Shown: piece after piece, positions 8,135 to 52,461 of the stretch | Layout of the letters: every line of letters begins with the position of its first letter | Numbering within the stretch: position 1 is the stretch's first letter | Assembly: GCA_025450195.1 (NCBI GenBank) | Contig: JANWHW010000012.1 | Span: 1-64,000 of the forward strand | Direction of reading: 5' to 3' | Source: Solirubrobacterales bacterium | Lineage (GTDB): Bacteria; Actinomycetota; Thermoleophilia; Solirubrobacterales; 70-9 | DNA length: 64,000 nt | Notes under the pieces: model-generated | Databases searched by the model: none | Told to the model about the DNA's origin: nothing | What the model saw: the letters and a program-made list of their open reading frames with translations, nothing else | Made by a program: the position numbers and the translations under genes

Positions 8135-8805
8135 CTGACAACGAGACGAAAAAAGACAAGACGACCGAGGAGACTCCGGTGCAGGACGAGGACACCCAGT
8201 CCGCGGGTACTGACGCGGAGGAGGCAACCTCGCCCTCGGACGATGCCTCAGGCGACGATGCCACCTCCACGCCACCCGCGTCAGATGCGTCTGAGGATGA
8301 GGCTCCGGCTGCCGACGATGCTTCGGCGCCCAAGGCTGAGGCTAGTCCTGAGGATGAGCTGCCCTGGAAGGAGAAGCGAAGGCTGGAACGGTCGAGGCGG
8401 CCGCATGAGCCAAGTCCCCAGCGGAGTACTGAGGAGAGGCAGGCCGAACGGCGCGAGGCGCGCAAGTCGAAGGCGGCTCTGCGGCGCAAGCAGCGGACTG
8501 CTGCCAGGGCGAACAAAGGAGAGGCCGGGACCGGTACGCCACCCGCCGAGCGCACCGCCAACGCTGCCAAGGTTCGTCAGGGAGTCGTCGTATCCGACAA
8601 GGGGGAGAAGTCGATCACGGTGCGGATCGACATTGTTCGCCGCCACCCGACCTACGAGAAGGTCGTGCGCAGCTCTCGCACTCTGCATGCCCACGATGAG
8701 CAGAACGAGGCGAACAAGGGGGACATCGTGCGGGTGGTCGAGACCCGGCCATTGTCAAAGACCAAGCGCTGGCGCCTGGTCGACGTGATCGAGAAGGCCA
8801 GGTAG
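8131..8805 (+). CDS. rpsQ: 30S ribosomal protein S17 with long acidic/basic N-terminal extension
   Basis: C-terminal S17 core [75 protein letters not shown]; ~145 aa N-terminal extension. Confidence 0.93.
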
Positions 8806-11947: not shown

Positions 11948-13006
11948 ATGAAGGGAATGGACACAACACACGTCGAGACGGTGAGCCCGCGGGGCCTCGA
12001 TCTCCAGGAGCGAGTGATCGAGATCAATCGCGTTGCCAAAGTCGTCAAGGGCGGGCGGCGATTCTCGTTCACGGCGCTGGTCGCCGTCGGCGACGAAGAG
12101 GGCGTGGTCGGGATTGGCTACGGCAAGGCTCGCGAGGTGCCGCTGGCAATTCAGAAGGCCGTTGAGAACGCCCGCAAGGACCTGATTCGCGTGCCCAAAT
12201 ACGGCCAGACGCTGACGCACAAGATCATCGGTCGCTTTGGGGCGGGGCACGTCGTCCTGCGGCCGGCCAGCCCCGGTACGGGAGTGATCGCCGGAGGCGG
12301 AGTTCGAGCGGTGCTCGAGCTCGGTGGCGTGCGGGACGTGCTGACCAAGAGCATCGGCACTCAGAACCCGATCAACTTGGTGAAGGCGACGATGGACGGC
12401 TTGATCAGGCTGCGTCGCCCCGAGGAGATCGCCGAGCTGCGCGGGTTGACCGTCGCCCAGGTGCTTGGAGTCGAGAAGGCCAAGGGCGCGACGGAGACCA
12501 TCGCCGCAGAAGGAGATCCGTCAGCTGCCCAGCCCGCGGGTCCTGACGCCGCAGGGGACGCGAGCGAGTCCTCGCCGGCGGGTCCTGACGCGGCAGGGGA
12601 CTCACCACCCCCTCCGGTAGCTAAAGCTTCCTCGGGGGCGGTGCCTCCTACCGCGCCACCCGCCGGAGAGGCCGATGCCGCGACAGCTGAACAGGCACCG
12701 GCCCCCGAAGCTGCCGTTGAGGAGAAAGCTGAGGAGCCCAGCTCCGTGCCACTCGCCGGAGAGGCCGATGCCGCGGCAGCTGAGGGAACTCCAGCCGCGG
12801 AGGAGGCTCCAGCGGTAGAGACACAAGCGGTAGAGGTCCCTGTTGCCGAGGCTCCGGCACCCGAGGCGGAGACGCCCGCCGCTGAGGAGGCTGTGGCTGC
12901 TGAGTCGGAGGTGCCTGCCGAGGAGCCAAAAGCTGAGGAGTCGCCGGTCGCTGAGGAGAAAGCTCCCGAGGGGGAGGCTAAGCCTGAGGAGAGCGAGCCG
13001 TCGTGA
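11948..13006 (+). CDS. rpsE: 30S ribosomal protein S5 with ~170 aa Pro/Ala/Glu-rich C-terminal extension
   Basis: S5 core [38 protein letters not shown]..; extension from ~aa 185. Confidence 0.95.
12575..12666. repeat. Copy A of ~92-bp palindromic-ended repeat, within the rpsE coding extension
   Basis: ccggcgggt...acccgccgg ends; 33-bp exact core ccccctccggtagctaaagcttcctcgggggcg shared with 20255-20347. Confidence 0.85.
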
Positions 13007-19891: not shown

Positions 19892-20245
19892 ATGCGCCAC
19901 CGCAAGAAGCGCAACAAGCTAAGCCGCGATTCCGCGCATCGAGAGGCGCTGCTTGCGAATCTCTCCAAGCAGTTGATCGAGCATGAGCGAATCAAGACCA
20001 GCCAGGCGAAGGCCAAGGCGGTCAAGCCCGAGGTCGAGCAGCTGATCACACTCGCGAAGCGAGGCGACCTGCACGCCCGCCGCCAGGCGTTGGCGGCCCT
20101 GCACAACGACAAATTCATCGTGCACAAGCTGTTCGAGGAGGTTGCTCCGCGCTACGGGGAGCGGCCTGGCGGGTACACCCGCATCGTCAAGTTGGGTCCG
20201 AGGAAGTCGGACTCGACTGAGATGGTCTACCTCGAGCTGGTCTAG
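19892..20245 (+). CDS. rplQ: 50S ribosomal protein L17
   Basis: MRHRKKRNKLSRDSAHREALLANL...RPGGYTRIVKLGPRKSDSTEMVYLELV. Confidence 0.97.
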   Translation: MRHRKKRNKLSRDSAHREALLANLSKQLIEHERIKTSQAKAKAVKPEVEQLITLAKRGDLHARRQALAALHNDKFIVHKLFEEVAPRYGERPGGYTRIVKLGPRKSDSTEMVYLELV

Positions 20246-20254
20246 CCGCACTGG

Positions 20255-20347
20255 CTGGCGGGTCCTGTCGCCGCAGGGGACCCACCGCCCCCTCCGGTAG
20301 CTAAAGCTTCCTCGGGGGCGATCGCCCCCTACGGCGCCACCCGCCAG
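20255..20347. repeat. Copy B of ~92-bp palindromic-ended repeat between convergent rplQ and truA
   Basis: ctggcgggt...acccgccag 9-bp inverted ends; ~89% identical to 12575-12666. Confidence 0.85.
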
Positions 20348-42025: not shown

Positions 42026-42067
42026 CGCACCAGATCCTCCAGCGGTGCGACGTCCCCGTCCATCGAG
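42026..42067. repeat. bioF-derived fragment (42 bp, one mismatch to 51896-51937)
   Basis: cgcaccagAtcctccagcggtgcgacgtccccgtccatcgag; minus strand encodes [13 protein letters not shown] as in BioF. Confidence 0.9.
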
Positions 42068-51261: not shown

Positions 51262-52461
51262 TCAGGCAGCCATGAGCTCAGTCGACGCTGGAGTCGAGGA
51301 GACGATCCCAAGCTCGCGAGCTGTTTCGCCGATGACCTTTGCCGCACCCAGCAATCCCTCGGAGCGGTGCGTTGACATCACGGTGAAGCGCAGGCGCGAG
51401 GAGCCCTCGGGCACAGTGGGAGGGCGGATTCCCTGCGCGAAGACGCCCCGTTCCAGGGCCCGCTCGCACAGTTCCATCGTGCGCGCCGCGCTGCCGACCA
51501 TCACCGGGACGATCTGCGTCTGGCCCCCGCCCACGGCAAGGCCCTCGGCCGAGAGCGCCTTTCGCAGTACCGTCGCGTTGGCGCGCAGCTGATCCACCCT
51601 GTGGGGATGGGATTCCAGCAACTCCAGCGCCGCCAGGGCCGCGGCGGCGGAGGGGGGGGATGGGGCAGTGGAGAAGATGAAGGAGCGAGCCGTGTTGATG
51701 AGGTAGTCGACGATCTCGCCATTTGCGCAGATATAGGCACCGTAGGACCCGAGTGCCTTGCCGAGCGTGCCGACGACGACGTCGACTTCGCCGCTCAGCC
51801 CCGCCGCGGCGACCGCGCCGCGCCCGCCTGGTCCCATTGCGCCGGTTGCGTGCGCCTCGTCGACCATCAGCCGGCAGTCGTGGTGACGAGCGAGTCGCAC
51901 CAGGTCCTCCAGCGGTGCGACGTCCCCGTCCATCGAGAAGACGCTGTCGGTGACGATCAGCGAGCCGCGCCCTTTGGCTTCTCGCAGACCCCAGGCGAGG
52001 TGCTCGACGTCACGATGGCGATAGACGAAGGTCTCGGCCCTGGAGAGCCGGCAGCCGTCGACGATGCTGGCGTGGTTCAGCTCGTCGGAGAAGACGACCT
52101 CTCCTTGGCGGGCGAGCGCTGCGATCGTCCCGCTGTTGGCGAGGTATCCGGAGCCGAATAGGAGCGCCCGCTCATAGCCCTTGAACTCCGCGAGGCGCTC
52201 CTCGAGTTGCTGGTGAGGCTTCATGTTGCCTGAGATCAGCCGCGAGGCGCCGGCGCCGGCGCCCCACCGCATGGCGGCCTCCGCGGCGGCGGTTCGGACT
52301 CGCGGATGGTCGGCCAAGCCGAGGTAGTTGTTGGAGCAGAGCAGCAGCACCGGGTTGCCGTCGAGCAGCACTCGGGGGCCCTGCGGGCCGCTCACCAGGC
52401 GCAATCGCCGGTGGAGCCCCTTGCCTCGAAGCTCCTCCAAGCGGTCGCCGATGTCGGTCAT
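51262..52461 (-). CDS. bioF: 8-amino-7-oxononanoate synthase
   Basis: [46 protein letters not shown]. Confidence 0.95.

Follow-up and report, generated by a model that had tools for sequence, protein, structure and literature searches.

Short palindromic elements dispersed in Solirubrobacterales genomes and read as protein in housekeeping genes

The window analysed here is a 64-kb stretch of a Solirubrobacterales genome (assembly GCA_025450195.1, contig JANWHW010000012.1, positions 1 to 64,000). A first-pass annotation had noticed in it a palindromic-ended repeat lying in frame within rpsE, the gene of ribosomal protein S5, with a second copy between rplQ and truA, and had proposed a dispersed element that is read as protein in an essential gene. 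Comparison of this genome (G000, 2.18 Mb) with its relatives gives good support to a dispersed, protein-coding palindromic family: G000 contains about 25 full copies of the same type, further types share their ends, relatives carry copies too, and in-frame insertion into housekeeping genes is repeated. Probably we are dealing with short, non-autonomous palindromic elements that have spread through Solirubrobacterales, are or once were mobile, and occupy sites whose centres change. Past mobility of the family is well supported, though indirectly.

Spread and anatomy of the element

Both blocks were recovered where they had been placed, at 12575-12666 in rpsE and at 20255-20347 in the gap that separates rplQ, with its stop at 20245, from truA. 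They share a 33-bp exact core, for whose pattern zero chance matches are expected, and have the 9-bp terminal arms described, in which pair 2 changes from C-G to T-A; their identity, put at ~89%, is 91% by BLAST. A long hairpin is predicted for both (z = -6.3 in rpsE and -5.3 in the intergenic block, against dinucleotide shuffles). Their ends are indeed palindromic, but the conserved unit, GCGGGT...ACCCGC, is shorter than the blocks first delimited (86 and 87 bp, respectively; Table 1), the outermost 3 bp on each side forming a copy-specific pairing zone outside it.

All copies share the same end boxes, GCGGGTCCTGTC on the left and GCCACCCGC on the right, which pair with each other; the terminal inverted repeats GCGGGT/ACCCGC are seen in selected copies. 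Inside the boxes there is a copy-specific self-complementary stem and then one of several conserved loops, which define classes A (GGTAGCTAAAGCTTCC), B (TCCTCGCAAGCTGCGGGCG), C, D, E and F. The usual element is 65-95 bp long. The letters of the inner stem vary from copy to copy while complementarity is kept (for example GATGGGGTGC/GACACCCCATC versus GGGTCGGGGC/GACCCCGACCC in G047), and immediately outside the unit positions 1, 2 and 3 pair in 88, 91 and 68% of 137 copies, compared with 42, 53 and 42% for flanks mismatched between copies. Several copies have much longer palindromic flanks, such as 16 bp in L032.

Two variants of this architecture were seen. In G001 (L113, L121, L124 and others) 35-nt box pairs ending CCACCACCCGC lead on to a longer hairpin (GCTGCGGGGGCGGCTG...), which may be a further loop class of the family. 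At L323 (G047:C54, around position 1487) a left box is followed ~100 nt on by an apparent class A element in opposite orientation, apparently within one coding tail.

A class A search of G000 gave 41 matches, ~25 of them full length and several partial. The genome also holds a few copies of another loop class with the same ends, and about 30 copies of the element in all. This is far more than two, so the possibility that only the two noted copies exist fails. The end-box pattern detects the family in 17 of 61 relatives. Within the class Thermoleophilia 16 of 299 genomes are carriers, all of them Solirubrobacterales and mostly uncultured; the reversed pattern, used as a control over the class, gave one hit in total, and the end-box search found no element in ~195 genomes of other orders. 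Other families of the order are represented among carriers (G037, G225 and G252), G296 being a weak case since the control pattern matched there too. Every named record that has the class A core is a metagenome-assembled genome labelled Solirubrobacterales, Thermoleophilia or Actinobacteria/Actinomycetota, and no match to the element was found in viral, phage and plasmid collections.

Copies in genes and turnover of their centres

Just over half of the copies (72 of 137) lie in predicted genes, the other 65 being intergenic. Among the 50 forward copies in genes, 48 are read in one frame (AGPV...PPAG), and 17 of the 22 reverse copies share the matching phase. Unit length equals 2 mod 3 in 63 of the 72 gene copies versus 26 of the 65 intergenic ones. 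Since class A has stops (TAG, TAA) in both other forward frames, purifying selection alone could account for the frame bias. Intergenic copies typically begin 7-30 nt past a stop codon, more commonly in gene orientation (42 versus 20).

Reading of the translations identifies the hosts in G000 as nusA, rpsQ (S17), dnaX, rpsE (S5), an lhr-type helicase, nuoC, rpsI (S9), rplJ (L10), two E2 acyltransferase genes, a pyrK-pyrD fusion and the N-terminal regions of GrpE and FtsZ; rpsA (S1) and guaA are added by relatives. Copies reside mostly in linkers and disordered tails of these housekeeping proteins.

The rpsE site is informative. All three genomes of the genus carry the element in the S5 tail: G000 has a class A copy, G001 a class B copy and G002 a loopless form of 47 bp. 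Outside the genus S5 tails are variable, Ala/Glu-rich and free of the element, which argues that it landed in an already dispensable extension. The slot is old, its centres differ, and what persists is the hairpin with its end boxes; conservation as protein, the other alternative raised in the annotation, does not describe this pattern. The copies of G001 and G002 have common flanks on both sides and different centres, that of G001 being nearly identical to the ftsZ copy in the same genome. Similarly, the rpsQ slot holds a class E element in G002 in place of the class B-like one of G000.

The same is seen on a larger scale in 87 cross-genome pairs of corresponding sites, found by BLAST of flanks, whose flank identity is mostly 68-95%. 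Mean identity of their centres is 0.63, against 0.61 for random foreign copies; the best match of a centre within its own genome is usually 0.8-1.0. In guaA of G045 and G047 the flanks are 95% (left) and 87% identical, yet one centre is class A and the other class B. The change at pair 2 had been taken as compensatory, the trace of selection on, or copying of, a palindrome. This is supported in general, but the turnover resembles the replacement of entire centres more than compensation one base at a time. The list of pairs mixes inherited and re-invaded sites, because some pairs match by region and not by base: between rplQ and truA the copy starts 12 nt after the stop codon in G000 and ~44 nt after it in G047.

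Re-insertion and exchange are about equally likely sources of this turnover. Under recurrent independent insertion, a hairpin-targeting element would re-land at the few tolerated places (terminator regions, linkers, tails) while older copies are lost, with no exchange involved. We regard this as a serious candidate that falls somewhat short of an even prospect. It is favoured by the two offsets in the rplQ-truA region, by the nuoC copy of G000, whose adjacent flanks differ from those of G001 and G002, by the unoccupied guaA of G012, G023 and G042, and by the palindromic nature of immediate flanks. It accounts poorly for the three guaA copies, which stand each exactly 30 nt past the start codon within alignable flanks and yet differ in class, and for the common flanks around unlike rpsE centres in G001 and G002.

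Under cassette exchange, the slots would be old and fixed, and gene conversion or site-specific recombination among the copies in one genome would renew the stretch between end boxes. End boxes conserved to the base around copy- and genome-specific centres, and the shared centre of rpsE and ftsZ in G001, point in this direction. Against it, we found no linked recombinase, ends of 12 and 9 bp offer little length for homologous recombination, and at some sites the outer flank differs too. We put exchange forward tentatively.

Folded strand, insertion and possible origin

When stem arms were aligned without favouring wobble pairs, isolated inner-stem mismatches proved strongly asymmetric. Counted on the box strand, A.C mismatches number 148 versus 16 G.U; the figures are 82 versus 16 for distinct sequence contexts (p = 7e-12) and 48 versus 16 for singletons (p = 8e-5), p-values that are indicative only, as copies related by descent make mismatch and frame counts non-independent. 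The excess keeps its direction whether copies are forward, reverse or intergenic and holds for all loop classes but D, and 120 of 132 copies fold better on the complementary strand. An A.C mismatch on the box strand is G.T or G.U on the complementary strand; therefore the complementary strand was the folded form. The signature does not separate RNA from single-stranded DNA, because G.T is tolerated in DNA as well. For forward gene copies the folding strand is not that of the mRNA, which speaks against a role in the host transcript.

An empty and a filled site can be compared in nuoC, in a single case. G005 and G023 read PDPPEGLPEIES and ADPGDGSLPAIDS, while in G000 the element stands between ADPS and EGLPEIDS; the gene has there gained a net 29 codons, which lie at the centre of CCCTC/GAGGG. 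At the empty rplQ-truA and guaA sites the flanks are too diverged for a target-site duplication to be read. The same NuoC loop bears other in-frame insertions of up to ~90 codons without end boxes in G041, G044 and G010 (L272, L273, L275), which marks it as an insertion hot spot.

Several candidate mobilisers were considered and rejected. A RAYT/Y1 transposase (PF01797) had no match in any of 17 genomes with the full-length pattern, incomplete as metagenome-assembled genomes are. Reverse transcriptases are patchy, RVT_1 being absent from G000, G001, G012, G045, G047 and G049 and present in G002 and G023. Integron integrases gave only matches below the cut-off, no better than ordinary tyrosine recombinases, and all 14 control genomes likewise match below it. 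No long autonomous parent transposon with the same ends was found in G000, G047 or G049, where left-box matches fall within short elements or solitary remnants (the genes flanking remnants are unannotated).

We propose that the elements are, or were, mobile and that the form which mattered in spreading would be the folded complementary strand, as single-stranded DNA or RNA. Insertion may prefer the centre of small palindromes or hairpins, and copies in genes would survive only where whole codons were added without a stop. The locally dominant element might then repeatedly overwrite existing sites, perhaps by conversion or exchange via the shared end boxes, perhaps by renewed insertion. A bolder version, which we consider doubtful, sees the end boxes as lasting docking points within essential genes and at the ends of genes, between which some machinery swaps hairpins genome-wide via a folded complementary-strand intermediate. 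If so, every species would bring its sites into line with a hairpin of its own and rewrite the same protein segments in frame.

A number of observations weigh against the mobile interpretation. Neither a mobilising enzyme nor an insertion event came to light; the nuoC junction, with an ambiguity of 1-2 nt, has no visible direct repeat; and the rplQ-truA copies share a region, not a base. The 25-nt outer flanks favour the strand opposite to that of the inner stem, which one folded molecule does not explain. A single molecule comprising both outer and inner stems is thus doubtful, and a native terminator or target hairpin behind the preference of the flanks is one possibility. To these should be added the relatedness of copies mentioned above, the predominance of metagenome-assembled genomes among those compared, and gene calls from a simple home-made codon-usage caller, which misfiled as intergenic at least the guaA copies, and likewise the N-terminal grpE and ftsZ copies of G000.

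It is improbable that we see a stationary family of structured RNAs or terminators, maintained by selection and compensatory point mutation. The many intergenic copies shortly past stop codons, with gene orientation the commoner, would suit such a family, but in most of them the folding strand is opposite to the mRNA. The A.C excess, the location of about half of the copies inside genes, the switching of loop class at the same site and the lack of any Rfam match above the gathering score are further arguments against it. Chance similarity of low-complexity Ala/Pro/Gly coding sequence, which the compositionally simple S5 tail might suggest, is refuted by copy number together with the zero expectation for the core, the non-coding copies, the near-zero reversed pattern and the fixed end boxes.

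Among the papers available to the literature search, none dealt with such repeats in Solirubrobacterales. In-frame coding palindromes are known from Rickettsia as Rickettsia palindromic elements (RPE; Ogata et al. 2000, as described in PMC10969869 and PMC3733652). Both groups consist of several families of short palindromic repeats, intergenic and in frame in functional genes, with no known mobiliser in the element; the hosts belong to different phyla and unrelated lineages, and RPE were compared by description. What distinguishes our family in this comparison is one pair of end boxes for all loop classes, turnover of centres at conserved sites and folding of the complementary strand. We know of no comparable end-box, turnover or strand comparison for RPE.

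REP/BIME elements, with their RAYT transposases, fall into GTAG and CGTC families (PMC3733652). They too are short, many-copy hairpin repeats with strand-specific single-stranded recognition. The Solirubrobacterales element is longer, its carriers lack a Y1 transposase, and neither the GTAG nor the CGTC terminal tag is present at its ends; by the tag and transposase tests it is not a REP/RAYT family. Miniature inverted-repeat transposable elements (reviewed in PMC10969869) are likewise short and non-autonomous, have inverted ends and are known to form in-frame fusions. Unlike them, nearly the whole element is one hairpin, and no parent transposon was seen; the nuoC junction, with its 1-2 nt of ambiguity, showed no direct repeat that would tell of a target-site duplication. 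Integron attC sites have short conserved ends and a highly variable self-complementary middle, and it is their folded bottom strand that is active. The resemblance in structured strand, ends and centre is by analogy only: the element has no GTTRRRY-type box, and we saw neither cassette arrays nor an integrase above the cut-off.

The family provides an independent case of in-frame coding palindromes, in Actinomycetota, for which far more can be compared: corresponding sites are available from several species, two loop classes replace each other between flanks as much as 95% identical, and stem mismatches carry a strand-specific signature. With this material it becomes testable whether such elements spread as single-stranded DNA or as RNA and by which of the strands, whether their sites are fixed and exchange occurs there, and how ribosomal proteins, DnaX, NusA, FtsZ and NuoC can have their tails and linkers rewritten by insertions while the cell survives.

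Features within the window

The first-pass annotation counted two copies in the window, overlooking a diverged third in rpsQ and two partial ends around the rpsE copy (Table 1). The latter suggest that the S5 tail has taken up insertions before or has undergone duplication locally.

Table 1. Coordinates of the element copies and associated features in the 64-kb window
Position	Strand	Feature	Basis
8203..8279	+	Diverged element, class B-like, in frame in N-terminal extension of rpsQ (S17)	
11948..13006	+	Host open reading frame rpsE (ribosomal protein S5), long Ala/Glu/Pro-rich C-terminal tail	
12536..12559	+	Second left end, partial (GCGGGTCCTGACGCCGCAGGGGAC), upstream in the same rpsE tail	Repeat families D3, D4
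12575..12577	+	Copy-specific 3-nt outer arm CCG, pairs with 12664-12666	Flank pairing
12578..12663	+	Full palindromic element, loop class A (GGTAGCTAAAGCTTCC), in frame in rpsE, encodes 29 residues	Sequence, BLAST, folding, translation
12664..12666	+	Copy-specific 3-nt outer arm CGG	Flank pairing
12744..12783	+	Partial right end and right flank; 40-nt direct repeat of 12651-12690, 93%	Repeat family D8
20258..20344	+	Full palindromic element, class A, between rplQ and truA, begins 12 nt past rplQ stop codon	

Elsewhere in the window, a 42-bp direct repeat, 98% identical, occurs at 42026-42067 and 51896-51937, its copies lying 9.9 kb apart.
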